DNA of 28,944 bases from a virus. This document shows, piece after piece, positions 12,333-24,318 of this stretch (position 1 is its first letter; the number at the start of each line of letters is the position of its first letter). Location of the stretch: positions 1 to 28,944 of the IMG/VR virus record IMGVR_UViG_3300046558_000241. One strand, given 5' to 3'. Position numbers and translations under genes: made by a program. The notes under the pieces are model-generated. The model was not told where the DNA came from, ran no database searches, and saw only the letters and a program-made list of their open reading frames with translations.

Positions 12333-13490
12333 TTATTCTCCTGGTGTTGGTTCGGCTGGCGTCGATTTCGCGCCCGAATTGCCATCAACTGATGACTGAT
12401 GATAATCATCAACGTTTGTATCTATGCGGGTTTGCGGGGTACTGCTCGCCACTTTCTCGCCACGCCCGAAACCGATTTTCTCGGCGATATCGTTCTGCGC
12501 CTGCGCCGCCGTGTCCCGGTTTTTCTCCAGGTAGGCCATGGTGGTCATCGGCGACTTGTGGCGCATCACGGCCTGGATCGTCTGGATCGGCACGCCCTGC
12601 TCCGACAGCATCGTGGCAAACGTGCCGCGCAGCCTATGCGGGGTGATGCCCTTGATCTTGCAGCTCAGGTTGGCGGACTTCATGGCCTTGCGGGCGAAGC
12701 CCGGTGGATGCTGCTGGGCGCCGCCGCGCTTGCCGGCGATCAGGCCCTCCACCTGGCGGTGCGGCGCCAGCTGCTCGACCAACCAGGCCGGCACCGGCAC
12801 AGGCTCGGCTTCGCGGCCTTTAGTGATGCCCGGCGTGTAGGTGGCGCGCTGCCAGTCCAGCCATTCCCAGCGCGCGCCGGCCGCCTCGGACTCGCGCAGG
12901 CCCAAGCCGAACATCAGGCGGATGGCCGTGGCCACCGATGGGTCTACGCGCGTGACCTGGTCGACCGCGGCAAACCATTCAGCCACGGCCGCGATCGGCA
13001 GGATCGAGCGTGGCCGCTTCTGCACCTTCAGCATGCGCACCTGCCACGGGATCGAGCGGATGATCTCGCGCTTCACGGCCCAGTTGGCGATCAGCTTGAG
13101 CACGCGCAGCCAGTGGTTCGCGCTGGCTGGCTTGTGGTCGACCAGGTGCTGGTTGCGCGCCAGCTCGACGTGGCTGGTGGTGATCTGGTTCAGCGGCAGG
13201 TCGCCCAGGTCGTAGAAGTGCAGCCGGGCGGTGGTCTCGACACTGCGCTGGTGCGCGGCACTGCTGATCGGGCCGTTCACCTCCAGCCATTCCTGCGCCA
13301 TGGCCGCCAGCGTCGGCACGACTTTGCCGCCGTTGGTCAGGATCAGCGCCTCGTCGTACGCGCGCTGCGCTACAAGGTTGGCCTTCGCCTTGCTGCTCTC
13401 GCGGGTGCTGCGCTGGACGCGCGCGCCAGCGATCTGGAAGCGGTAGTGGTAATTCTTGGCCTTGCCGGCCCGGAACAGGTGAAAACTCAT
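12333..13490 (-). CDS. int: Tyrosine-type phage integrase
   Basis: 385 residues. The SAM-like core-binding domain is about residues 58-145 and the catalytic domain about 165-345. Catalytic residues visible: Arg199 in LGLRESEA, His285 and Arg288 in TPHRLRGTF, His311 in MRHKSPMTT and the nucleophile Tyr320 in MAYLEK. It performs site-specific recombination between phage and chromosomal attachment sites. The C-terminal 45 residues after GFGRG are low complexity and encoded by DNA that is repeated at 10761-10835. The gene lies among the early lytic genes, not at the prophage end, so excision relies on attachment sites about 11 kb away or more. Confidence 0.93.
   Translation of the reverse strand: MSFHLFRAGKAKNYHYRFQIAGARVQRSTRESSKAKANLVAQRAYDEALILTNGGKVVPTLAAMAQEWLEVNGPISSAAHQRSVETTARLHFYDLGDLPLNQITTSHVELARNQHLVDHKPASANHWLRVLKLIANWAVKREIIRSIPWQVRMLKVQKRPRSILPIAAVAEWFAAVDQVTRVDPSVATAIRLMFGLGLRESEAAGARWEWLDWQRATYTPGITKGREAEPVPVPAWLVEQLAPHRQVEGLIAGKRGGAQQHPPGFARKAMKSANLSCKIKGITPHRLRGTFATMLSEQGVPIQTIQAVMRHKSPMTTMAYLEKNRDTAAQAQNDIAEKIGFGRGEKVASSTPQTRIDTNVDDYHQSSVDGNSGAKSTPAEPTPGE
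12387..12461 (-). repeat. int: Direct repeat copy overlapping the integrase 3' end
   Basis: Partner of the repeat at 10761-10835 (about 75% identity over 75 bases, no gap). Includes the conserved blocks ATAATCAT, TATGCGG, TTGCGGGGT and CGCCACTTT. The pair brackets the zinc-ribbon, 80-residue, DUF550 and DUF4406 genes. Confidence 0.6.
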
Positions 13491-13499
13491 TCGTGTCTT

Positions 13500-14267
13500 T
13501 CAAATAACGCCAAGGGCGGTCTTGGCGTTGGTGATCTGCATGGCGTGCAGCGATTTATCGCCCTTGGCCAGGCGCGCCATGATCTTTCGCGCCCACGTCT
13601 TGTGGTCGAAATGCGTTGCCCGTGGCGACTTGGTCACGCCGCTGGCTTCCAGTTCGGCCAGCATGCGGGCCGCATCCTCGCGGGAGAGCGTGCCCTTGCC
13701 CGGCGCTGGCAGCGCTGGCACCGGCGCCGGGATCTCGGCCCATTCGCCGCGCGCCAGCTGCGCGCTCAGCGTGGCCGCCCAGCGATCCTTGACCTGGCCG
13801 TACGACTGCGTCATCAAATCGCGTGAGAGGAGCGTGGCGGCCCAATAAACTGCTGGGTGCGACCAAACCCCTACCTCCCCCTTTCGGCGGGCTTGTATAC
13901 CCTCCACAGCCTCGTGGTAAGCCTGTGGCGCGTTGGAGGACGGCTTGCAAGCTTGGATAAACTCTGCACACGACGGTGGTTTCTGGTGATGCAGACGACA
14001 CGCTTTCAGGCCGACAGCGACGTCCTTGGGGCTGATGCCTTCTTCCTCGAAGGCCTCGACCCATGATTCGGCCCAGTTCCGCAGCGCTACCTCGCTGGCG
14101 AAATTGGATGCCCACCAGTGCGGGTATGCGCCGTCGAGGCGGTTGTACAGATGCTCGATCATCGACACCTTGAGGGTCGGATGCACCTCGAACCAGCGCG
14201 AATCCGGCGCCGTGCTGGACTGGCCCAGGAAGCAGCTTTGGCTGCCAGCAGTTGCAACTTCGCTCAT
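13500..14267 (-). CDS. Replication protein P-like (helicase loader)
   Basis: 255 residues. The central segment MIEHLYNRLDGAYPHWWASNF, then NWAESWVEAFEEEGISPKDVAVGLKACR and PPSCAEFIQACKP, matches the phage replication protein P family, which recruits the host DnaB helicase to the phage origin. The C-terminal third is helical and basic. Start at 14267 with GGGAG about 7 nt upstream; it overlaps the O-like gene by 4 nt. The O-P order is the same as in lambda. Family assignment is by recognisable motif, moderately sure. Confidence 0.75.
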   Translation of the reverse strand: MSEVATAGSQSCFLGQSSTAPDSRWFEVHPTLKVSMIEHLYNRLDGAYPHWWASNFASEVALRNWAESWVEAFEEEGISPKDVAVGLKACRLHHQKPPSCAEFIQACKPSSNAPQAYHEAVEGIQARRKGEVGVWSHPAVYWAATLLSRDLMTQSYGQVKDRWAATLSAQLARGEWAEIPAPVPALPAPGKGTLSREDAARMLAELEASGVTKSPRATHFDHKTWARKIMARLAKGDKSLHAMQITNAKTALGVI

Positions 14268-15157
14268 GTCCGGCTCCCGGGCTGTGTTCGGCCACGATTG
14301 ACGAATGCGGTCGGGTCAAACTTCGCCGGGCGGCCGCCCGCAGCACCATGAGGCGCATGCTGCTGCGCACCCAGCTTGGCCCAGTCCTCCCGAATCGCGT
14401 TCTGCAACGCCTGATCCCAGTCCGCGTAGGTGTAGCCATTGGCACGCGCCTTGCCGACGAACGAATCGAAGTGCGCCTGCAGGTTCGTGTGGCCTTTGGC
14501 TTGGGCCCAAGCCTGGACGGCGGCCGAAATCGTGAAATCGGATGGCAGCGGCGTCTTGGCTGGCTTGCGCGTGGTTTTCGACGCGGGAGCGGCGGCGACC
14601 GGAACGGTCGCGTGCTCCTGCTCCTGCTCCTGCTCCTGCTCTTGTTCCTGCTCTTGTTCCTGCTCTTGTTCCTGCTCTTGGCTTGCAAGGGGCTTTGAAG
14701 GGGCTTGTAAAACCGGTGCAATACTGTCGCCGGCACCGCGCTTTCTCGTCATGCAAAAAGAGATGGCGTAATGCTCGAAGAATCGCGCCAGGAAAGGGTT
14801 TGCGGGCAGCGCGTCATACTCGTTTTGCACACCCTTGACGCGCAAATCCCTGCCGGTCAAAGCATCTGCAATCTGGTATTTGGCCATTTCGACTACCCAA
14901 ACCATCTCCGAAGCCTCGTCATACTCACAAAACCCTGCTTCGACGGCCCTAACAAGCCCCTTCGCAGCCCCTTCAAAGCCCAATCCCGTCTCATGCGCGA
15001 TGAACATTTGCGGCACGTAGTACAGCCCCAACATGTTGGCGTGCGGCGACGTCATCAGGTACAGCGCGACGATCTGCGCCTCTGGCCCAGCCGCGCGCAG
15101 CTTTTTCCCGGTGGCACCGATCCAGAACTTGGGGCCCACCTTTCCGTAGTCACGCAT
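14264..15157 (-). CDS. Replication initiator O-like protein with (QE) repeat
   Basis: 297 residues from MRDYGKVGPKFW, the usual start of this phage replication family. The N-terminal domain (to about 130) is a winged-helix-like module with KKLRAAGPEAQIVALYLMTSPHANMLGLYYVP. A run of about eleven Gln-Glu pairs links it to a C-terminal helical domain (PLPSDFTISAAVQAWAQAKG ... YADWDQALQNAIREDWAKLG). It probably binds the phage origin and hands over to the P-like protein. The gene carries paired AAGGGGCTT repeats that may be its own origin. The Gln-Glu linker is encoded by a six-base repeat prone to slippage. Confidence 0.75.
   Translation of the reverse strand: MRDYGKVGPKFWIGATGKKLRAAGPEAQIVALYLMTSPHANMLGLYYVPQMFIAHETGLGFEGAAKGLVRAVEAGFCEYDEASEMVWVVEMAKYQIADALTGRDLRVKGVQNEYDALPANPFLARFFEHYAISFCMTRKRGAGDSIAPVLQAPSKPLASQEQEQEQEQEQEQEQEQEQEQEHATVPVAAAPASKTTRKPAKTPLPSDFTISAAVQAWAQAKGHTNLQAHFDSFVGKARANGYTYADWDQALQNAIREDWAKLGAQQHAPHGAAGGRPAKFDPTAFVNRGRTQPGSRT
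14614..14680. repeat. Six-base tandem repeat encoding a Gln-Glu run
   Basis: About eleven units of (C/T)TGCTC or CTTGTTC type on the plus strand, giving alternating Gln-Glu on the minus strand. The units differ only at synonymous third positions (CTCCTG versus CTTGTT), a pattern produced by slippage plus drift. Confidence 0.85.
14687..14973. repeat. Two inverted pairs of AAGGGGCTT repeats, candidate phage origin
   Basis: Plus-strand copies at 14687-14695 and 14698-14706 are 11 bp apart. Minus-strand copies at 14954-14962 and 14965-14973 (last with one mismatch) are also 11 bp apart. The outer flanks form a perfect 15-bp inverted repeat (14690-14704 and 14967-14981). Lambda-type origins sit inside the O gene and use such iterons. 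Confidence 0.4.
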
Positions 15158-15321: not shown

Positions 15322-15942
15322 TTACGCCTTTTCGCGTGGCCCACGTGTCGAATGCAGCACACGCTGCAGCACGTCCTTGGTGCGGGACATTGCCTTGCGC
15401 GCGCCGGTGAGGATGCGCACGATGCGCGCCTTCTTCTCGGCCGCCCGTGCCGCCTTGCGCAATGCGATCTCGTAATTAGCTTGCGTGGGCGCTGCCACGA
15501 CAGCAGCCAGCGATGCCAGTGCGTCAGCGTCGGCGCTGGCCAGGTCGCAGATATCGCCCAGGGCCAGGCCCGCCTCGTCGCTCGATTCGATGGCGCGCAC
15601 GCACAAGCCGAAGCGGCGCAGCATGTCGTTCAGGCAGTGCACGCGGGCGTCATCGGGCATGCCGGAGAGGATCGAGAACACGAAGTTCGCCGGCAGGAAA
15701 TTGGTGTCCTTGGTTTCGTCGTCGAGCCAGCGCAGCACGCGGTCGCTGTTGTTCTTCATGCGCTGGAACTCGTCCGTGTGCGCATCGAAGCGGATGCCGG
15801 TGACGGCCGGGCCGCCGACGTGCGCATGCGCCGCGACGATCATGTCGATGGCGCTTGCGCTGGACAGCCCAGCGGCCCGGCGCCAGTCGGCCACGTGCTC
15901 GCGCAGGATGCCGATCAGGGTTTTGTGCGACTCGTTACGCAT
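15322..15942 (-). CDS. YdaT-family / CII-position regulator
   Basis: 206 residues. The first 130 residues resemble the YdaT family: DWRRAAGLSSASAIDMIVAAH, FDAHTDEFQRMKNNSDRVLRWLDDETKD, then LPANFVFSILSGMPDDARVHCLNDMLRRFG. YdaT-type proteins lie directly downstream of the cro-like gene in lambda-like prophages and act as DNA-binding regulators; some are toxic when overexpressed in E. coli. The C-terminal 75 residues are Ala-rich and basic. Strong GGGAGG site 8 nt upstream, reaching into the end of the Cro-like gene. The family match is moderate. Confidence 0.55.
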   Translation of the reverse strand: MRNESHKTLIGILREHVADWRRAAGLSSASAIDMIVAAHAHVGGPAVTGIRFDAHTDEFQRMKNNSDRVLRWLDDETKDTNFLPANFVFSILSGMPDDARVHCLNDMLRRFGLCVRAIESSDEAGLALGDICDLASADADALASLAAVVAAPTQANYEIALRKAARAAEKKARIVRILTGARKAMSRTKDVLQRVLHSTRGPREKA

Positions 15943-15945
15943 GCT

Positions 15946-16164
15946 TTATGCCTCCCGCCTAGGTATAGTCGAAATGTCCTCACCGCAGACTTCATGATGA
16001 AGCGCCTGGATCGAGCGAAGGGTTTTGCCTTTGCAATCTGCCTGGCCGTTCAAAATTCGATTCACGGTGGGCTGAGAAATGCCCAGTTTTTGAGCGATAA
16101 CAGGCTCACTCAAGCGTGTTCGTGCTTTGATTTCGCTAAGAAGGGTCGAGATATTTTTATCCAT
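15946..16164 (-). CDS. Cro-like repressor
   Basis: 72 residues from MDKNISTLLSEIKARTRLSE. It contains a helix-turn-helix EPVIAQKLGISQPTVNRILNG. The recognition helix QPTVNRIL is nearly the same as that of the divergent CI protein (QPTINRIL), implying shared operators. The start at 16164 lies 5 nt after a TATATT -10 box, so the message is probably leaderless. A longer frame to 16236 would cross the promoter and is rejected. It should repress cI and act early in the lytic programme. Confidence 0.85.
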   Translation of the reverse strand: MDKNISTLLSEIKARTRLSEPVIAQKLGISQPTVNRILNGQADCKGKTLRSIQALHHEVCGEDISTIPRREA

Positions 16165-16169
16165 ACCGC

Positions 16170-16248
16170 AATATATACGCGAATGGATAGTTGCGCAATA
16201 CCTGAATGAATAGGCACTTGTGCCTAAACTATACACAGACGTATATTG
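16170..16248. promoter_or_regulatory. cI/cro divergent promoters with three operator-like sites
   Basis: Minus-strand cro promoter: TTGCGC (16198-16193), 17 bp, TATATT (16175-16170). Plus-strand cI promoter: TTGTGC (16218-16223), 18 bp, TATATT (16242-16247). Three 22-bp sites of the form AACTAT-N10-ATAxxx are seen: O1 16171-16192 (minus), O2 16194-16215 (minus, first bases GCCTAT) and O3 16227-16248 (plus). O1 covers the cro -10 box and O3 the cI -10 box. A separate dyad AGGCAC-TT-GTGCCT (16212-16225) lies in the middle. Confidence 0.7.
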
Positions 16249-16252
16249 GATT

Positions 16253-16957
16253 ATGGATATAGCAAGCCGTTTAGATGAAGCAATGAAGGCTGCGGATTTT
16301 GATTCGCAAAGTGCACTCGCCCGCGCCTCCGGGGTACCTCAACCAACAATTAATCGTATTCTCAAAGGCGCCGGTAAGCGCGGGCCCGAAACTCAAACAA
16401 TTTCCAAACTTGCGCTAGCGTGCAACGTCGCGTTTCAGTGGCTGCTTGACGGCACAGGAGAAAAGATCCGCACCTACAACGTGCAAGAGGCGCCATCCGC
16501 CTATCACCAAGTTGTTGCCGCTGGTCCAAATGATCCCGACTTCTACGAAATTCCAAAGGTGAAGCTGAGCCTGTCAGCCGGGCTAACTGGCTTCCAGACG
16601 GTCCCGGAAATATACGATGGAAGTAAGGTAAGCGTGCCACGCAACTGGGCTGACCGTAACGGGTACATTCCAAGCAAGCTACTTGCCTTGACCGTTAAGG
16701 GAGAGAGCATGGAACCAGGGCTCGGGGAGGGTGATGTGGTGATCGTAAACACGGCAGATGAGAAGCTTGTCGATGGAAAAGTGTATGCGATAAACTATGA
16801 AGGCGAAGCAGTAATCAAGCGCCTTATGAGAGATTCAGGGGAGTGGTGGCTGACATCTGACAACGCAGATCAAAGACGATTCCCCCGGAAGTCATGCGGA
16901 GGTGGCGAGTGCATCATTGTGGGCCGCGTGGTCCGCAAAGAAAGCGATCGAATCTAG
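16253..16957 (+). CDS. CI-type repressor with LexA/S24 self-cleaving domain
   Basis: 234 residues from MDIASRLDEAMK. N-terminal helix-turn-helix about residues 18-39 (SQSALARASGVPQPTINRIL). The C-terminal peptidase S24 domain has the Ala109-Gly110 cleavage site (LSAGLTG), Ser152 in VKGESMEPG and Lys189 in EAVIKRL. So it should be inactivated after DNA damage through RecA-stimulated self-cleavage. The start at 16253 lies 5 nt after the TATATT box, so the message may be leaderless; a longer frame to 16220 would begin upstream of its -10 box. It is followed by the 16972-17508 gene and a terminator. Confidence 0.92.
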   Translation: MDIASRLDEAMKAADFDSQSALARASGVPQPTINRILKGAGKRGPETQTISKLALACNVAFQWLLDGTGEKIRTYNVQEAPSAYHQVVAAGPNDPDFYEIPKVKLSLSAGLTGFQTVPEIYDGSKVSVPRNWADRNGYIPSKLLALTVKGESMEPGLGEGDVVIVNTADEKLVDGKVYAINYEGEAVIKRLMRDSGEWWLTSDNADQRRFPRKSCGGGECIIVGRVVRKESDRI

Positions 16958-16971
16958 TTATCGGAGAATTA

Positions 16972-17508
16972 ATGGCAGGAGTTAAATGCGCCGAATGTGG
17001 CACCCACATCACGGTTCGCGGTCTTACACAGTGCCCTATTTGCAAGGCCCAGGTGGAACCTATCGCTGACAGCCGCCTCGGCCATGCAACCGAAAAACAC
17101 AGGTCAAAAAGCAAAGGTCCCACTGCACTCTCACCTAAAACAAAACTGAGTTTCGGTCATTGGATAGGTTTAGTCAGCATCTGTGGAATTATTGCTTCCG
17201 TTGCGGCCATACTCTGGAGCATCGCTAATCCGTCACCTGAAAAACTGCGCAAACGGGCGCTTGCAAATGCGCTTCTTACGTGCCAATACGCAATAAAAGG
17301 CACAGCCGGGCATGGCGGAGCGGAGTTGCCACCTTACGCAAAAAATTACGGCACTGCAGCCGACGAGTTCTATTTTTCTTGGCCACGCGGCTCGTTCGAA
17401 TTTCAGAATGGGTTCGGTGGAAAAGAGCAGATGTCGGCAAGCTGCATAGGTATATTGTCAACAAATACAATCACTCAACTTACGGTCAATGGCAAAGATA
17501 TGCTCTAG
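16972..17508 (+). CDS. Zinc-ribbon plus one-transmembrane protein in the cI operon
   Basis: 178 residues. N-terminal double CxxC zinc ribbon (CAECGTHITVRGLTQCPIC, about 6-24), a basic linker, one transmembrane helix (about 63-86, WIGLVSICGIIASVAAILWS) and a C-terminal extracytoplasmic region with DEFYFSWPRGSFEFQNG. GGAG lies about 6 nt upstream of the ATG. It is transcribed with cI, so it is probably made in the lysogen. Lower GC than its neighbours. Lysogenic-conversion or superinfection-exclusion roles fit the position but are unproven; no family recognised. Confidence 0.7.
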   Translation: MAGVKCAECGTHITVRGLTQCPICKAQVEPIADSRLGHATEKHRSKSKGPTALSPKTKLSFGHWIGLVSICGIIASVAAILWSIANPSPEKLRKRALANALLTCQYAIKGTAGHGGAELPPYAKNYGTAADEFYFSWPRGSFEFQNGFGGKEQMSASCIGILSTNTITQLTVNGKDML

Positions 17509-17534
17509 TCCAAGCACCGCACGCCAAAAGAACA

Positions 17535-17559
17535 AGCCATTCACGAATGGCTTTTTTTT
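17535..17559 (+). terminator. Terminator of the cI operon
   Basis: AGCCATT-(CACG)-AATGGCT followed by eight T. It ends the cI transcript just before the DGR promoter, so the DGR operon needs its own promoter. Confidence 0.85.
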
Positions 17560-17565
17560 ATAAAA

Positions 17566-17611
17566 AACTATTCATTCACGTATTGACATAACTATTCATT
17601 CGCGTATAGTT
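17566..17611 (+). promoter_or_regulatory. DGR operon promoter with two CI/Cro-like operators
   Basis: TTGACA at 17583-17588, 16 bp spacer, TATAGT at 17605-17610. Site A: AACTAT-N10-ATAGTT (17590-17611) covers the spacer and -10 box. Site B: AACTAT-N10-ATTGAC (17566-17587) covers the -35 box. Bases 17568-17608 match the cro promoter region (minus strand of 16174-16213) at about 35 of 41 positions with one gap. GGAGAG at 17641-17646 serves the first gene. Confidence 0.75.
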
Positions 17612-17649
17612 CAATCCATCGACGCACCACCTCAACCGATGGAGAGAAA

Positions 17650-18312
17650 ATGTCACACGCCGCCAGCAGCACGCCAGTACCCAGCGCCACCGTCAAAATC
17701 CCCTACCTCACCTGCGCTGAATGCAACGCAATCATCCAGGCCAATGCCAGCGCGCAGCCTGCCGCCACGCCAGCATCGGCCATCGACCTGATCGCTGACG
17801 GCCTGCTCGACGCCGAACTGTGGCCCGAGGACAGCGAGCTCGTCGCCGAGATACGCGCCATGTTCCTGGCTCATTGGGGCATGGACCAGGCGCAGGCCGA
17901 CGCGCGCATGTCCCGCCTGAACTACAGCGACGCTATCGCCGTCCTGGAACTCCAGGCGGGGCCCGGCGCCATCGGCAGCACCTTCGCCGGCGGCATGTAT
18001 GCCGGCATCATCCGCGGCGCCGACGGCCGGCCAGACGAACACCTTGTGCTGCTGGACGGTGACACCGACGGCGTCACCTGGGACGCCGCATGCGTCTGGG
18101 CCGCCGCCAAGGGCGCAACCCTGCCAACACGGGCCGAACAGCGCCTGCTCATGGCAAACCTGCCTGATCAATTCCAGGCGCGCTACTACTGGTCCAGTGA
18201 GCAGGCCGGCCCCTCTATCGCGTGGAGTCAGGATTTCGGCAGTGGCGGCCAGTACGACTTCTACCGCTCGTACGAGGGCCGCGCCCGCGCCGTCCGCAGA
18301 TTCCCAATTTAA
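17650..18312 (+). CDS. DGR target protein 1 (DUF1566-like / C-type-lectin-type variable protein)
   Basis: 220 residues. An extra N-terminal domain (1-100) has a CAEC motif and a helical segment (IDLIADGLLDAELWPEDSEL). The C-terminal 110 residues are the shared module: FAGGMYAGIIRGADG, TWDAACVWAAAKGATLPTRAEQRLLMANLPDQ, YYWSSEQAGPSIAW and a constant end RSYEGRARAVRRFPI. VR1 lies within the last 40 codons. Such DUF1566-type scaffolds carry variable residues on a binding face, as in DGR targets with the C-type-lectin fold. First gene of the DGR operon. No signal peptide seen, so it is probably cytosolic or carried on the virion. Confidence 0.85.
   Translation: MSHAASSTPVPSATVKIPYLTCAECNAIIQANASAQPAATPASAIDLIADGLLDAELWPEDSELVAEIRAMFLAHWGMDQAQADARMSRLNYSDAIAVLELQAGPGAIGSTFAGGMYAGIIRGADGRPDEHLVLLDGDTDGVTWDAACVWAAAKGATLPTRAEQRLLMANLPDQFQARYYWSSEQAGPSIAWSQDFGSGGQYDFYRSYEGRARAVRRFPI
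18199..18301 (+). repeat. Variable repeat VR1 of the DGR
   Basis: 103 bases matching the template repeat. The nine AAC/AAT template codons read SDGSGYDFY here, with 12 of 18 template adenines changed and no other base changed in that block. The last 36 bases are identical to the template. The first codon is GAG where the template has ACG. Confidence 0.95.
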
Positions 18313-18353: not shown

Positions 18354-18644
18354 ATGAAATTCAATATCTATTTGGTCATAGCAGTGGCCATCATCGGCGC
18401 CATCACGGGCAGCCTGGCCATGAGCTTGGGCGAAATCGAGCCAGCGGCCAGCGCCGCCATCATCCTGGTATCCGTGCTGGTCTTGGGCTGGGGCGCCGGC
18501 AACATGTCGTCTCGCGCCGAGATCGAGCGCCTGAGCGGCATCGAGGAAGCGCGCCGCATCCAGGCCAGCTGCCTGGTCGCCATGCGCAACCGCTTGGAAA
18601 GCGAACTGGAGAGCCTGCGCGTTGTGAATGGCGGTGCATTGTGA
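18354..18644 (+). CDS. Small membrane protein with C-terminal coiled coil
   Basis: 96 residues. Two hydrophobic helices (about 5-24, VIAVAIIGAITGSLAM, and 30-51, AIILVSVLVLGWGAG) then a charged helical tail (SRAEIERLSGIEEARRIQ ... RNRLESELESLRVV). AAGGG lies about 7 nt upstream. Two membrane segments with a cytoplasmic coiled coil could be holin-like or a membrane tether, but no lysis neighbours are present. Not recognised. It overlaps the next gene (GTGA), so it belongs to the DGR operon. Confidence 0.65.
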   Translation: MKFNIYLVIAVAIIGAITGSLAMSLGEIEPAASAAIILVSVLVLGWGAGNMSSRAEIERLSGIEEARRIQASCLVAMRNRLESELESLRVVNGGAL

Positions 18645-19372
18645 GCGCCACGAAGACACCGAACCAGCAACCGATGGACATGACGGCTGGCACGCAAGCC
18701 TCCGCACACGATAGCTTGGTGCTGACTGCGAAATTCCTACCTATCGTGGCGCCATTCTTGTCCAAATTCGATCCTCGCTACTACTTGAAAGGCCTGAACG
18801 TGCGGCCTTTGTCGGGCGGTGGTGTAACTATCTGCGCGACCAACGGTCAGATTCTCGGGGTTTTTCGTGACCCGGATGGAATTTGCCTTGAAGAAGTGAC
18901 CCTGGTTATCGGCACTGAAGTGCGGGCGGCGTGCGCTGCCGGCATCGACAGCAATCGCAAGGTAGTGATGCGCAACGGTCGCCTGACGGTGATCGACGGA
19001 GCCGGCAACGACATCTGCATCCAGGCAGGCAACCCGATAGTCGACCCTTCGAAACCGTACCCGCGCTTCGAGAAAGTGGTACCGCCAGCAGGTGAATTGA
19101 ATCCAGGCCTGATTGGCGTCATCAATTCCCCCCTCTTGATGAAGCTGAACGCTGCGGCGGTCAGCGCCAGACGGGCGAGCGGCATCCGCAAAAGCTACCG
19201 CGATTTTCATGGACTGACGTTTTTCAACGTGGGCGGTGACGGCAACAAATGCACGGTGGCGCGCTTCGATTTCGATGCCGACTTCCTTGCGATCGTCATG
19301 CCACTGCGCGCTGAGAACGATATCAGCAAGCCGCTGCCATCTTGGATGCAAGACGAGCGAGACGCAGCATGA
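18641..19372 (+). CDS. Sliding-clamp-like protein (beta-clamp-related)
   Basis: 243 residues from a GTG overlapping the upstream stop; an in-frame ATG at 18674 is the alternative. The central segment FDPRYYLKGLNVRPLSGGGVTICATNGQILGVFRDPDG, then VVMRNGRLTVIDG and YPRFEKVVP, follows the pattern of the second and third domains of DNA polymerase beta clamps (RYYLNG..., ATDGHRLA..., FPDYRRVLP). The length is about two thirds of a full three-domain clamp. It may be a phage processivity or clamp-mimic protein. The resemblance is by eye and needs structure-based searching. Confidence 0.45.
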   Translation: MSATKTPNQQPMDMTAGTQASAHDSLVLTAKFLPIVAPFLSKFDPRYYLKGLNVRPLSGGGVTICATNGQILGVFRDPDGICLEEVTLVIGTEVRAACAAGIDSNRKVVMRNGRLTVIDGAGNDICIQAGNPIVDPSKPYPRFEKVVPPAGELNPGLIGVINSPLLMKLNAAAVSARRASGIRKSYRDFHGLTFFNVGGDGNKCTVARFDFDADFLAIVMPLRAENDISKPLPSWMQDERDAA

Positions 19373-19734
19373 AGCGCCCCCGCCTTCCTCACCCAAATTC
19401 GCGCTCCTACGCCTTGCTGCAGGCGCTGGTCGTGCGGCCCGGCACCTTTTACCAGGTCGTCGAGCGCGCCGGCTTCGATATCGAGGCCACCGGCATGGAG
19501 CAGCGCTTGCGCCTGATTTTCACGCACGGCATCCAGCGCCACGTGCACCAGGACGGGATCATGTACGAGATCAAAGCGACCTCCCGCGACGCAATGCTGG
19601 GCATCAACCCTGCGCCGGCGGACGCCGGACAGGTGGCTGCGCCACATTTTCGCGGCGCCGCCAGCGCGATGCCTGTGCTGGTCGTGCGCCGCAGCAGCAA
19701 AACCAATACCTCACCCATGCAGCAATCCACCTGA
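19369..19734 (+). CDS. Hypothetical protein in the DGR operon, 121 residues
   Basis: From MKRPRLPHPNSRSYALLQAL. The first 70 residues look like a winged-helix-type fold: SYALLQALVVRPGTFYQVVERAGFDIEATGMEQRLRLIF resembles small phage DNA-binding or regulator modules that sense subunit number. The tail is basic (VVRRSSKTNTSPM). The start overlaps the clamp-like gene stop (ATGA) and the stop lies 10 nt before target 2. Not recognised. Confidence 0.6.
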   Translation: MKRPRLPHPNSRSYALLQALVVRPGTFYQVVERAGFDIEATGMEQRLRLIFTHGIQRHVHQDGIMYEIKATSRDAMLGINPAPADAGQVAAPHFRGAASAMPVLVVRRSSKTNTSPMQQST

Positions 19735-19744
19735 AAGAGAAGCC

Positions 19745-20131
19745 ATGACCACCACTACCGCAGTTGCACTCTCCACCATCCCCGCCGCCATCGGCGCCGC
19801 ATTCGCCGGCGGCATCTACGCCGGTATCAGCCGCGGCGTGGACGGCGCGCCCGACCAGCACCTGGTGCTGCTGCCCGGTGAAGCTGTCGATGTCGACTGG
19901 GAGGCCGCTGGCGCCTTCGCTGCCAGTGTCGGTGGCGAGTTGCCGACGCGCGCCGAGCAGGCGCTGCTCTACGCCAATTTGAAAGACCAGTTCGAGCCGC
20001 GCTGGTACTGGTCCAGTACGCAGGCCGGCCCCTCTACCGCGTGGCTTCAGGGTTTCGACAATGGCTACCAGGACTTCGGCAACCGCTCGTACGAGGGCCG
20101 CGCCCGCGCCGTCCGCAGATTGCCAATTTAA
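19745..20131 (+). CDS. DGR target protein 2 (DUF1566-like variable protein)
   Basis: 128 residues, essentially the variable module alone: a short N-terminus, then FAGGIYAGISRGVDGAPDQHLVLLPG, WEAAGAFAASVGGELPTRAEQALLYANLKDQFEPRWYWSS, and the VR2 region ending RSYEGRARAVRRLPI. It keeps the scaffold of target 1 without its N-terminal extension. AGAGAAG lies just upstream of the ATG. The 3' flank (AATTTAA-x-C/T-ATTTATTAATTTTCTTT) is nearly the same as that of target 1, indicating gene duplication that included downstream DNA. Confidence 0.88.
   Translation: MTTTTAVALSTIPAAIGAAFAGGIYAGISRGVDGAPDQHLVLLPGEAVDVDWEAAGAFAASVGGELPTRAEQALLYANLKDQFEPRWYWSSTQAGPSTAWLQGFDNGYQDFGNRSYEGRARAVRRLPI
20018..20120 (+). 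repeat. Variable repeat VR2 of the DGR
   Basis: 103 bases. Nine template codons read LGDNYDFGN, with 11 of 18 adenines changed. The 5' codon is ACG as in the template, unlike VR1 and VR3, so its homing tract reaches further 5'. Confidence 0.95.
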
Positions 20132-20167: not shown

Positions 20168-20530
20168 ATGAGCAAACAACAATTCATGGCCGAGAACCTG
20201 CGGGAAGGCGAGATCTATGCCGGACTGATCCTCGGCAAGGACGGCGCCGCCGACTACCACCTGTTCCTGCAACCAGGCGCCGTAACTGGCGTGAAGTGGC
20301 AGGCGGCCATGGACTGGGCCAAGAAGCTCGGCCACAGCCTGCCGACGCGCGCCGAGCAGGCACTGCTGTTCGCCAACTTGAAACACGAGTTCGAACCCCG
20401 CTACTACTGGTCCAGTGAGCAGGCCGGCCCCTCTCACGCGTGGGATCAGGGTTTCGACTATGGCGTCCAGAACTACGGCCACCGCTCGTACGAGGGCCGC
20501 GCCCGCGCCGTCCGCAGATTAGAAATTTAA
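20168..20530 (+). CDS. DGR target protein 3 (DUF1566-like variable protein)
   Basis: 120 residues from MSKQQFMAENLREGEIYAGL. The same module as targets 1 and 2 (IYAGLILGKDGAADYHLFLQPG, WQAAMDWAKKLGHSLPTRAEQALLFANLKHEFEPRYYWSS) with VR3 at the end. Outside the repeat it differs clearly from target 2 in sequence, so it is an older paralogue and not a recent copy. It ends 18 nt before the Avd gene. Ribosome binding site weak. Confidence 0.88.
   Translation: MSKQQFMAENLREGEIYAGLILGKDGAADYHLFLQPGAVTGVKWQAAMDWAKKLGHSLPTRAEQALLFANLKHEFEPRYYWSSEQAGPSHAWDQGFDYGVQNYGHRSYEGRARAVRRLEI
20417..20519 (+). repeat. Variable repeat VR3 of the DGR
   Basis: 103 bases. Nine template codons read DGDYVNYGH, with 11 of 18 adenines changed. 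It shares the CAC codon with the template at the position where VR1 and VR2 have ATC and ACC. The 5' codon is GAG. Confidence 0.95.
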
Positions 20531-20548: not shown

Positions 20549-20923
20549 ATGGCCAACCATACCGACCTGCCGATTTCCAAAGTTGCCTACGACCTGCTGG
20601 TCGTGGCGACCGACTTGACCAAAAATATGCCCCGCGACTTCAAGGCATCGGTCGGCAAGGAAATCCGTGACGAGTGCGTGCGCTTGACGGTGCTCATCTT
20701 CCGCGCGAACGTCGCGGGCGACAAAACACCGTATCTCGACAAGCTACTCGAGCGCGCGCAGGTGATCGAGTTGCTGTTCCGGCTTTCCAAGGACTTGCGC
20801 TTTATCTCAGTCGCGCAGTATGCGCGGGCCATCGCACTGACCAGCATGATCGGCAAACAGGCCGGCGGCTGGAAGAAATACACCGCATCGTCGCCTGCAT
20901 CTTCCCGGTCAAGGCCGGGTTGA
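20549..20923 (+). CDS. avd: Avd, DGR accessory variability determinant
   Basis: 124 residues. Four-helix-bundle pattern typical of Avd: VAYDLLVVATDLTKNMPRDFK, VGKEIRDECVRLTVLIFRANVA, YLDKLLERAQVIELLFRLSKDL, SVAQYARAIALTSMIGKQAGGWKKY. Avd forms a basic pentameric barrel that binds the reverse transcriptase and template RNA and is required for mutagenic copying in the Bordetella phage DGR. Position between the last target and the template repeat is the canonical one. No clear Shine-Dalgarno; start chosen by family alignment. Confidence 0.9.
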   Translation: MANHTDLPISKVAYDLLVVATDLTKNMPRDFKASVGKEIRDECVRLTVLIFRANVAGDKTPYLDKLLERAQVIELLFRLSKDLRFISVAQYARAIALTSMIGKQAGGWKKYTASSPASSRSRPG

Positions 20924-21077: not shown

Positions 21078-21180
21078 ACGCAGGCCGGCCCCTCTCACGC
21101 GTGGAATCAGAATTTCAACAATGGCAACCAGAACAACAACAACCGCTCGTACGAGGGCCGCGCCCGCGCCGTCCGCAGAT
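21078..21180 (+). repeat. DGR template repeat (TR)
   Basis: 103 bases holding nine AAC/AAT codons plus one CAC in the target reading frame (NQNFNNGNQNNNNRS). Outside the 5' codon and position 21096, all differences between TR and VR1-VR3 are at TR adenines. A GC-rich constant 3' part with the perfect palindrome CTCGTACGAG (21145-21154) is identical in all four copies and would act as the homing (IMH-like) end. Confidence 0.96.
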
Positions 21181-22284
21181 CATCCCGATACGGACTTCAC
21201 GCTCGAGCAGCTGGCCGTCGCATATTTCGACTGCCGCCGCAGCAAACGCAATACCCCCAGCGCCCTGGTGTTTGAGCAGCACCTGGAGCGCAACCTGATC
21301 AACCTGTTCGATGACCTGCAGGATGGCAGCTACCAGCCCGGCCAGTCGATATGCTTCGTCGTCACGCGCCCCAAAGCGCGCGAGGTGTGGGCGGCTGACT
21401 TCCGCGACCGCGTGGTGCACCACCTGCTTTACAACAAGATTTCGCCGCGCTTCTACGCCTCATTCATCAAGGACACCTGTGCCTGCATCCCCGGGCGGGG
21501 CACGATGTACGCGGCCAAGCGCCTCGAGGCGAAGATCCGCAGCGTCACGCAGAACTGGAGCAAGCCCGCGTTTTACCTGAAATGCGACCTGGCCAACTTC
21601 TTCGTCGCCATCGACAAGGACGTGCTGCGTGGGCAGATCGCGGCGCGCGTCAGCGAGCCATGGTGGCTGCGCCTGGCCGAAACGATCCTGTTTCACGACC
21701 CACGCGAGAACTACCAGCTGCGCGGCGCGCCCGAGCTGCTGGCGCGCGTGCCGGCGCACAAACGCCTGGTCAATCAGCCAGTGCACCTGGGCCTGCCGAT
21801 TGGCAACCTGTCGTCGCAGTTCTTCGCCAATATCTACCTCGATGCGCTGGACCAGCATGCCAAGCACAAGATCGGCGCCCGGCACTATATCCGCTACGTC
21901 GACGACTTCCTGCTGCTGCACGAATCGCCGCAGTGGCTGGGCACGGCGCTGGCCAACTTAAACGAGTTCCTGCCGCGCGTGCTGCACGCCAACCTCAATC
22001 CCAGCAAGACGATCCTGCAGCCGATCGCACGCGGCGTCGACTTCGTTGGCCAGGTCATCAAGCCTTGGCACAGCCGCACACGGCGCCGCACCGTGCACGA
22101 GGCAACCAGCCGTATTGCCGGCATCCCGGCGGCCGACGTGTTCGCGGCAGCCAACAGCTACTTCGGCCTGCTGCGCCAGGCGGACAGCAGCCATGCTGAC
22201 CGTGCTGCGCTGGCGCGTGCGGTGATGCGGCGCGGGCATTGCGTCAACGGAGCGCTTACCAAAACCTATAGGAAATCATCATGA
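21121..22284 (+). CDS. DGR reverse transcriptase
   Basis: 387 residues from the only ATG in frame; the true start may be later. Motifs: NKISPRFYASFIKDTCACIPGRG with GRG at 125-127, LKCDLANFF with catalytic Asp156, LGLPIGNLSSQFFANIYLD (223-241; the I/LGNLxSQ form is typical of DGR enzymes) and YVDD at 259-262. Then LNPSKT and VDFVGQVI (thumb). It copies template RNA into cDNA with random incorporation at adenines, and the cDNA replaces a variable repeat. The ATG at 21121 lies inside the template repeat and has no ribosome binding site, so residues 1-20 would be encoded by the repeat in another frame. The stop overlaps the next gene (ATGATG). Confidence 0.95.
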   Translation: MATRTTTTARTRAAPAPSADHPDTDFTLEQLAVAYFDCRRSKRNTPSALVFEQHLERNLINLFDDLQDGSYQPGQSICFVVTRPKAREVWAADFRDRVVHHLLYNKISPRFYASFIKDTCACIPGRGTMYAAKRLEAKIRSVTQNWSKPAFYLKCDLANFFVAIDKDVLRGQIAARVSEPWWLRLAETILFHDPRENYQLRGAPELLARVPAHKRLVNQPVHLGLPIGNLSSQFFANIYLDALDQHAKHKIGARHYIRYVDDFLLLHESPQWLGTALANLNEFLPRVLHANLNPSKTILQPIARGVDFVGQVIKPWHSRTRRRTVHEATSRIAGIPAADVFAAANSYFGLLRQADSSHADRAALARAVMRRGHCVNGALTKTYRKSS

Positions 22285-22706
22285 TGTACGACCCCGCCCA
22301 CATCGAACGCCAGCACCTGGCAAACCAAGCCGTGCCCGCCTATTCACTGATTCGCAAGGCCTGCGCATGCGGCAAGGCCAGCACCGCAAAACAGCTGGCC
22401 CAGCAAGGCAAATGCGCCGCATGCGCGCTGGTGGCCGTCCGCGACGCAATCATGCCTGGCGACTTCGCCAAGCTTCAGCACATGCTGGGCGCCGTGCGGC
22501 AATATCCGAAGTCCAAGTGGGGCTGGCGCAACTATTTTGCCGCCGGCAGCGGCCAGCAGCACGAGGCCATGCAGCGCCTCGTGACCGCTGGCCTTGCCAC
22601 GGCCGGCCGCGCATGCGGCGACATGACCTATTTCTACGCTACCCGCCTGGGTTGCAAGGCTGCTGGCCTCGATGGCGCTGGCATCAAGCGCGCGATGGAG
22701 GATTGA
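22281..22706 (+). CDS. Hypothetical protein after the reverse transcriptase
   Basis: 141 residues from MMYDPAHIERQHLANQAVPA. Two cysteine pairs (CACGKAST and CAAC, about 29-49) suggest a small zinc site, followed by a helical domain with FAKLQHMLGAVRQYPKSKWGWRNYFAAG and HEAMQRLVTAGLATAGRA. No family recognised; the tail resembles phage proteins of unknown function with a C-terminal winged-helix-like segment. Overlaps the reverse transcriptase stop and precedes the PAPS-reductase-family gene by 2 nt. Confidence 0.65.
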   Translation: MMYDPAHIERQHLANQAVPAYSLIRKACACGKASTAKQLAQQGKCAACALVAVRDAIMPGDFAKLQHMLGAVRQYPKSKWGWRNYFAAGSGQQHEAMQRLVTAGLATAGRACGDMTYFYATRLGCKAAGLDGAGIKRAMED

Positions 22707-22708
22707 AG

Positions 22709-23701
22709 ATGAGTCTTATCCATCTGGTATCCCTTTCGGGCGGCAAAGACAGCACGGCTACAGCTATCCTCGCGCTCGAGCAGCACGGTGCGACCGCATG
22801 CCGCTTCGTCATGGCCGATACGGGCAACGAGCACGAGAGCACGTTGGAATATGCGCTGGACTACTTGCCGGCGGCCTTGGGCATCAAGGTCGACGTGGTA
22901 CGAGCCGATTTCGCTGACGAGTTCGCCACCAAGCGCGCCAACCTAGCGCGCATCGCTGCCGGCGAACCCGAGTCTGCCGTGTATGGGAAGCGCAAGTTCA
23001 TGTATCACTGGACGGCCGAGGCCGCACAGCGTGCGCTTGAGTTGCTACATCCATCTGGAAACCCGTACCTTGACCTTTGCATGGTGCGAGGTGGCTTCCC
23101 ATCGCGCAAACGGCAGTTTTGCACGGAATATCTCAAAACCAAGCCCTTGACGGAGTTCGCCATGGATTTGATCGATCGTGAATGCGATGCGATCTGGTCC
23201 TGGCAGGGCGTCCGTATCGATGAAAGCCAATCACGTCGCGAACGGCTGCAAGGTACTGGCGCATGCGTCAAGCACTTTGAGGTGGTGGGCGGCGGCCTGT
23301 TCACCTACCGGCCCATCTTGCGCTGGAACGTCGGTGACGTGTTCGAGGCCCATCGCTTGGCTGGCATCGAGCCAAATCCGCTCTACAAGCAAGGCATGTC
23401 GCGCGTCGGCTGCATGCCTTGCATCAACTGTAGCAAAGGGGAGTTGCATGAGGTGTCGCGCCGGTTCCCCGAGCACATCGCTCGAATCGCGGAATGGGAG
23501 GCTCTGGTGTCGGAAGTGTGCCGGCCGCGCTCCCCCGTGTCGTTTTTCCATATGGGTACCAAGGCGCACGCGGGTCAGGCATCTACCATCGAATCGGTGG
23601 TCGAGTGGTCAAAGACCAGTCGCGGCGGCAAACAATTTTCACTGCTCACAGCGCTGGACGAACCAACGGCGTGCAGCTCTGCTTACGGATTATGCGAATG
23701 A
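22709..23701 (+). CDS. PAPS reductase-family ATPase (DndC-like superfamily)
   Basis: 330 residues from MSLIHLVSLSGGKDSTATAI. The N-terminal PP-loop SLSGGKDS (about 8-15) binds and adenylates, and VMADTGNEHESTLEY follows as in the family. The C-terminal part has GCMPCINCSKGELHEVSRRFPEH, a cysteine cluster with phage-type spacing. Proteins of this family transfer sulfur or adenylate groups; DndC-type members take part in DNA phosphorothioate modification. The role here is unknown. In the PAPS-reductase line phage copies are common near the right end of prophages. A longer in-frame region upstream of 22709 belongs to the neighbouring gene's shadow. Confidence 0.8.
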   Translation: MSLIHLVSLSGGKDSTATAILALEQHGATACRFVMADTGNEHESTLEYALDYLPAALGIKVDVVRADFADEFATKRANLARIAAGEPESAVYGKRKFMYHWTAEAAQRALELLHPSGNPYLDLCMVRGGFPSRKRQFCTEYLKTKPLTEFAMDLIDRECDAIWSWQGVRIDESQSRRERLQGTGACVKHFEVVGGGLFTYRPILRWNVGDVFEAHRLAGIEPNPLYKQGMSRVGCMPCINCSKGELHEVSRRFPEHIARIAEWEALVSEVCRPRSPVSFFHMGTKAHAGQASTIESVVEWSKTSRGGKQFSLLTALDEPTACSSAYGLCE

Positions 23702-23988
23702 CGACCAACATCACGAGCGACAAATGGCGCGGCGAACGCGGCGAACCGACCAATCCGGCTACGGTGCGCTTCAAGGCTCAAGAGGCGCAAGCACCCAGCT
23801 GCGAGGGCTGCCTGTTCGAGCGCTCTTACGGCGTGTGCTCGACGGCAGCAGTGCACGCTGTGGCCAACGACCAGCCGGACTGCGACGACCGCTCACCGGG
23901 CGGCATGACCTACATCTACGTGCTGGACCGCAGCGACCCGCGCCAGCTCGACCTTATCAAGACCCTGCAAATGGAGAACGCATCATGA
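23698..23988 (+). CDS. Small cysteine-containing protein, 96 residues
   Basis: From MTTNITSDKWRGERGEPTNP. A central cluster (CEGCLFERSYGVCS ... PDCDDRS, about 35-66) could bind zinc. The C-terminal YIYVLDRSDPRQLDLIKTL is a likely strand-helix. Start overlaps the upstream stop (ATGA). Similar short proteins with CxxC-x8-C spacing occur next to AlpA-type regulators in prophages. Function unknown. Confidence 0.65.
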   Translation: MTTNITSDKWRGERGEPTNPATVRFKAQEAQAPSCEGCLFERSYGVCSTAAVHAVANDQPDCDDRSPGGMTYIYVLDRSDPRQLDLIKTLQMENAS

Positions 23989-24185
23989 ACACTACGCCAC
24001 AACCTGTCGAACAACGCCTGTACAAAATCAGCAGCGCCATGGAGCGCCTGGAGGTATCCCGCGCCACACTGTACCGCATGGTGTCGCGCGGCCAGCTGGT
24101 CCTAGTCAAGATCAGCATCGGCGCCAGCAGAATCACATCGGAAAGCCTGGCTTTGGCCATGAGGGGAAGAAAGCCGGGCGAATAA
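23985..24185 (+). CDS. AlpA-like excisionase / helix-turn-helix regulator
   Basis: 66 residues. Begins MNTTPQPVEQRLYKISSAME, then the winged-helix motif RLEVSRATLYRMVSRGQLVLVKIS and a basic tail MRGRKPGE. Residues 12-55 follow the MerR-like DNA-binding pattern of excisionases and AlpA-type regulators. It is the last phage gene and overlaps the previous one (ATGA). Such proteins direct integrase towards excision. That would place control of excision in the same operon as the DGR. Confidence 0.75.
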   Translation: MNTTPQPVEQRLYKISSAMERLEVSRATLYRMVSRGQLVLVKISIGASRITSESLALAMRGRKPGE

Positions 24186-24263: not shown

Positions 24264-24318
24264 TTTCACAAGACACGAAGCCTTGAAACCCGCATAAAAC
24301 ATGACTGTAAATCAAATA

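Follow-up and report, generated by a model that had tools for sequence, protein, structure and literature searches.

The question raised by the locus described here is whether a DGR carried by a temperate phage is expressed under the control of the phage's own lysis–lysogeny repressor. The window, that is, the whole stretch of DNA analysed, corresponds to a viral record 28,944 bases long, which holds most of a prophage together with host genes at its right end. Among named genomes, its closest kin are prophages of Janthinobacterium (RT 94–96 % identical), and the host is best taken to be Janthinobacterium or a close relative. Capsid, terminase, integrase-family, replication and CII-like genes lie to the left of the immunity switch, and the order rightward from the pL promoter is VP1, three small genes, VP2, VP3, avd, the template repeat (TR), the reverse transcriptase (RT) gene and three or four further genes (Table 1). 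The integrase-family gene (12333–13490) sits amid the replication genes and well away from the right end of the prophage, where the gene for a small HTH_17 protein lies. The right-hand host gene, at 24301, encodes an exonuclease-III-type Exo_endo_phos protein; host xthA adjoins the prophage end.

Table 1. Features of the immunity region and early operon (positions are those of the window)
Feature	Position	Strand	Basis or remark
CII-like regulator	15322–15942	−	phrog_4834
cro	15946–16164	−	leftward reading
OR site over cro promoter	16171–16192	−	operator-word match
Middle OR site	16194–16215	−	scored against best operator site
OR site, cI side	16227–16248	+	adjoins cI promoter
cI repressor	16253–16957	+	HTH and Peptidase_S24; A109-G110, S152, K189
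orf16972, 3' of cI	16972–17508	+	probably co-transcribed with cI; rex-like position
Intrinsic terminator after cI–orf16972	17534–17559	+	stem 17534–17553, then T's; same hairpin in L004
OL1 operator	17566–17587	+	AACTATTCATTCACGTATTGAC; over pL −35 region
pL promoter, TTGACA-N16-TATAGT	17583–17610	+	11/12 consensus positions
OL2 operator	17590–17611	+	AACTATTCATTCGCGTATAGTT; over pL −10; perfect AACTAT-N10-ATAGTT palindrome
pL-operon 5' leader	17616–17644	+	inverted repeat CCATCG...CGATGG ending at Shine–Dalgarno
VP1, first pL-operon gene	17650–18312	+	early N-terminal domain (~1–92) fused to DGR variable domain
VR1	18204–18301	+	13/14 differences at TR A
Operon gene, also in DGR-less relatives	18354–18644	+	relative comparison
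Operon gene, also in DGR-less relatives	18641–19372	+	relative comparison
Operon gene, also in DGR-less relatives	19369–19734	+	relative comparison
VP2, DGR target	19745–20131	+	contains VR2
VR2	20023–20120	+	12/13 differences at TR A
VP3, DGR target	20168–20530	+	contains VR3
VR3	20422–20519	+	11/11 differences at TR A
avd	20549–20923	+	phrog_3206, 1.2e-32; bAvd
Template repeat TR	21083–21180	+	TR/VR comparison
DGR reverse transcriptase	21121–22284	+	most homologous matches begin at residue 12–26
Operon gene, common to DGR-less relatives	22281–22706	+	relative comparison
PAPS-reductase-like protein	22709–23701	+	profile match
Small HTH_17 protein, operon end	23985–24185	+	below Pfam cut-off; excisionase-like by size and place

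The local elements of the original prediction were recovered. The near-consensus promoter lying under two 22-bp sites was reproduced to the base, the alignment of this segment with the opposite-strand cro promoter region at about 35 of 41 positions was reproduced by counting, with a 1-base gap needed, and the terminator placed between the cI transcript and pL is a stem followed by T's (−10.4 kcal/mol, z −5.1). The recognition helices of CI (QPTINRIL) and Cro (QPTVNRIL) are, as claimed, almost alike. With up to three mismatches allowed, the OL2 word matches the window three times, at 17566, at 17590 and at the site over the cro promoter, and has no match in 100 dinucleotide shuffles. Scoring against the best site yielded five operators, three OR and two OL, of which the second and third OR sites were absent from the earlier list and complete the set. 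An origin of the operator matches by chance or artefact was ruled out by the shuffles, by the cross-phage permutation and by the own-OR matches of exchanged blocks (both described below). Promoter-like sites in general are no more frequent than expected by chance, so that the weight of the pL promoter lies in its conservation in relatives.

In phage lambda, pR and cro read one way and cI the other, and in the cI direction there follow a terminator (timm) and then OL and pL. The window is laid out in the same manner: divergent cro and cI genes have three operators between them, a terminator stands after the cI transcript in the position of timm, and beyond cI two OL sites with the same recognition word cover an early promoter which reads away in the cI direction into early genes. 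The CI protein is of S24 type, with an Ala-Gly cleavage site and a Ser/Lys dyad as judged from the residues only; these residues are invariant in 12 relatives, and a phmmer search of CI against solved structures gave no match at 0.001. Unlike lambda, the window has another operator sequence, and the pL operon starts with genes targeted by the DGR and also includes avd, TR and RT. We conclude that the segment 17566–17611 is very probably a lambda-type OL/pL region repressed by CI in the lysogen, the DGR being cargo of the early operon and having early proteins, not tail fibres, as its targets.

The resemblance to the opposite-strand cro promoter could also be explained if the DGR had arrived with, or acquired, a CI-controlled promoter of its own, a duplicated cro promoter set before it so as to place it under the switch, and the first gene after OL is indeed a DGR target both in the window and in L006. 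However, the DGR-less relatives L004, L005, L008, L015 and L026 have the same type of block and leader, and the promoter thus belongs to the immunity region with or without a DGR; a captured promoter specific to the DGR was rejected on this ground, and its acquisition together with the DGR is scarcely credible. The arrangement of three OR and two OL sites recurs in L004 (CI 88 % identical), L005 (73 %), L006 (68 %), L019 and L027, and the spacing of OL1 and OL2 is 24 bp in all six phages of the window's operator type where it is readable. In L004, which lacks a DGR, the terminator, OL and leader are retained, as are orf22281 and the three operon genes after the first; C5-cytosine and N6-adenine methyltransferases (13024–15033 and 15611–16474) replace the VP2–VP3–avd–TR–RT segment of the window. 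Because OL/pL and the operon exist in L004 without a DGR, the DGR is to be regarded as cargo of the operon, and by this comparison the pL operon holds a variable cargo slot, occupied by methyltransferases in L004 and by the DGR in the window. Placing the DGR promoter under CI and Cro was therefore justified in so far as its operators are those of cro and cI, but the promoter is a general OL/pL which DGR-less relatives also possess. VP1 is a fusion protein: in DGR-less relatives the first pL gene encodes its N-terminal domain of about 92 aa and nothing more, which implies that an early protein already present either gained the variable domain or lost it; the homologue in L004 is 88 aa long, without the variable domain (L004:11396–11662).

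The strongest evidence for a tie to the repressor is, on comparison of the sequences, the exchange of the operator block under a kept leader. The leader CCATCG...CGATGGAGAGAAAATGTCACACGCC is near-identical in many Janthinobacterium prophages and the block that precedes it varies, being TATTCATTCRCGTAT in the window and L004, GCAAATTGCTATAGTTT in L008, AGTATAGACNGTCTATACTT-like in L015 and L043, AAACACNNNTGTGTT in L026 and L096, AAGGTTTAACCTAAT in L041 and L106, CACTTAAATTTAAG in L044 and TTTAGGCATGCCTAA in L048; L098 has one more block, with no upstream sequence to compare. Seven unrelated operator types were checked by searching the preceding 4.5 kb, and each pre-operon block best matched the OR of its own phage, 1.2–2.3 kb upstream and directly before any CI-type gene recognised there; in L026 and L043 this match is weak. 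Between L044 and the window, VP1 is 86 % and RT 94 % identical whereas CI is only 29 % identical, and the operators differ accordingly. The leader repeat CCATCG-N-CGATGG abuts the Shine–Dalgarno sequence and is kept almost unchanged in relatives with an exchanged operator block; it might shield the mRNA or hold back its early translation.

A single-locus shuffle test, too weak at long intervals, was replaced by a cross-phage permutation in which the OR region of each repressor was compared with the repressor–DGR interval of every phage among 33 DGR phages. The sum of own-pair matches was 529, as against 479.5 (sd 4.1) when permuted, and none of 20,000 permutations scored as high. The own match was strictly best in 12 of the 33 phages, where about one would be expected; it was not so in the other 21, mostly those with a long interval to the DGR or a partial HTH match, and the operator arrangement is thus shown for a subset. 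Operator and repressor co-vary across phages, which shows that each set of operators goes with the repressor of the same phage. A search of relatives for the 22-bp operator upstream of DGRs had been suggested; an exact search of viral contigs returned two loci only and was uninformative, since relatives use other operators.

Predicted repression in the lysogen follows from the operators shared with cro and cI, the separating terminator, the S24 residues and the co-variation of operator and repressor, and our best prediction is that the DGR is off in the lysogen and on with the lytic cycle. CI bound to OL1 and OL2 would cover the −35 and −10 regions of pL and keep the early operon off; on infection, or on self-cleavage of CI after DNA damage, pL would fire, and a single transcript starting at about 17617 would pass through VP1, VP2, VP3, avd, TR and RT to the phage end, with Cro, which has nearly the same recognition helix, damping pL later. 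Targets, template and RT would all be early products of the lytic programme, to which mutagenic homing would be restricted. The proposed link to SOS induction is thus kept for the self-cleavage residues of CI, but it describes one route only, as pL should fire at every new infection too.

Even with OL/pL repressed by CI, a lysogen could still produce RT, Avd and TR through an internal promoter or through readthrough, and the DGR would then not be strictly switched. Hankyphage lysogens diversify in ordinary cultures (PMC12135933), for which spontaneous induction could account, and many promoters escape simple scans, so that a weak or non-sigma-70 promoter near avd, TR and RT, or readthrough of the terminator, is conceivable. 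We consider such expression unlikely, given that no second promoter-like site was found on the plus strand between 17.5 and 24.4 kb and that a strong terminator stands before OL with no separate terminator within the operon. In the consensus scan, which weak or non-sigma-70 promoters escape, pL is the sole sigma-70-like site on the plus strand from 15.5 to 24.4 kb, and a scan of the operon found no terminator-like sites on that strand inside it. The position of the operon, beyond cI at the prophage end and beside host xthA, is a frequent site of lysogenic-conversion genes and could point to a locus active in the prophage, with the DGR diversifying proteins that benefit the host. This is very unlikely in view of the OL sites over the promoter and of the content of the same operon in related phages, namely RecT, Bet, exonuclease, RdgC and integrase, which are early lytic functions. 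A CI-repressed early operon accordingly remains our preferred reading of the locus.

The DGR has both a DGR-type RT and Avd, and 36 of the 38 TR/VR mismatches, pooled over the three VRs, fall at TR adenines. The first codons of the RT open reading frame lie within TR; the true start of RT may lie after TR, or its first residues may be encoded by TR. Matches of the VP proteins to C-type-lectin-related profiles (FGE-sulfatase and Lcl_C) are weak only, and the predicted structure of VP1 is poor (pLDDT 43). The VRs differ among the near-identical VP1 genes of the window, L044 and L098, which fits DGR activity in nature.

To assess how widespread the arrangement is, 89 RT-bearing loci were grouped into 70 clusters. 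In 33 of these a CI-family repressor gene precedes the RT gene on the same strand, in two it is found on the opposite strand, and in none is it downstream; no CI-family repressor was recognised by this profile in the other 35, 13 of which have short upstream stretches. The opposite-strand cases are L055 and L101, whose DGRs may lie on the cro (pR) side. The isolated phages Magia (Burkholderia), Haboob and LPPA56 (Pseudomonas) and QDWS (Shewanella) have an RT of the same family (60–64 % identical) and carry the DGR between repressor and integrase. They resemble the window in their repressor-side DGR operon, recT/bet/exonuclease genes and short targets (recT or bet together with nuclease genes was found in the same region of Magia, Haboob and QDWS) and differ from it in their repressors and operators. 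Candidate OL sites that repeat the operator word of the respective phage are clearest in QDWS (18/18) and weaker in Magia, Haboob and LPPA56.

The complete genomes of these four phages contain three (Magia and QDWS) or two (Haboob and LPPA56) VRs each, and all ten lie in short genes of the repressor-side early operon and none in tail genes. In eight Janthinobacterium-type records the VRs are within about 5 kb of TR. No VR of the BPP-1 type, in a tail or receptor-binding gene, was found, the window itself being without most tail genes. Since the VRs all lie in repressor-side operon genes, the diversified proteins are probably not tail fibres. Differences between the Magia VRs and TR fall at TR adenines in 15/15, 11/11 and 8/8 cases. 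According to the Magia announcement, the phage has a DGR with two short targets, the regulation not being covered (PMC7883833); a third VR, outside those two targets, is located in gene 46 (L132, 32316–32780). Methyltransferases occur in or beside the corresponding place in L004, Haboob and QDWS, which suggests a counter-defence role for the diversified proteins, and a study of gut prophages (Nature 2025) reported second VRs in the vicinity of genes for counter-defence, methyltransferases among them (PMC12629997).

The window shares with BPP-1 (mtd/avd/TR/brt) the order of Avd, TR and RT and the adenine-specific differences between TR and VR. The BPP-1 DGR, however, shares its strand with the tail and head genes and has its main VR in the tail tip gene mtd, whereas that of the window is in the repressor-side early operon. 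The BPP-1 record (L128) also annotates a 'variable region 2' in bbp36 (33229–33558), a gene of the repressor-side early operon, and this position is the one used by the repressor-side DGRs of the window and its relatives. In hankyphages, when the CI-like repressor RepC was silenced, most phage genes were expressed more strongly and the resulting virions showed active DGR mutagenesis (PMC12135933), and the earlier statement that no DGR under direct lysis–lysogeny control had been described is thus too strong. Hankyphages differ from the window in being Mu-like phages of Bacteroides with a tail-fibre target, and no operator at the DGR has been described for them (PMC12135933). The parts combined in the window are therefore of known kinds, a lambda-type OL/pL region and a DGR, and hankyphages already provide a case of a DGR that becomes active once a CI-like repressor is lost; we found no description in the open-access literature of a DGR in a CI-controlled pL operon, or of its retention across operator types.

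It is tempting to speculate on the function of such an arrangement. We tentatively propose, as an idea to which we give rather less than even weight, that a widespread class of temperate-phage DGRs, rather than tuning tail fibres, hypermutates early non-virion proteins which are made only once the repressor lifts, and which are encoded in the slot that relatives use for methyltransferase, counter-defence or recombination genes, thereby forming a repressor-gated system of host takeover or counter-defence. If this is true, the early proteins would act in the cell just entered by the mutated genome, and genotype and phenotype would stay coupled. The architecture offers a concrete and testable answer for the whole class, namely that mutagenesis is gated by the lysis–lysogeny repressor, a gate that has persisted through many replacements of repressor and operator sequence, and cultivable members are at hand in Magia, Haboob, QDWS, LPPA56 and Janthinobacterium lysogens. 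Attention would move to targets other than tail fibres, which are likely to act early and inside the cell.
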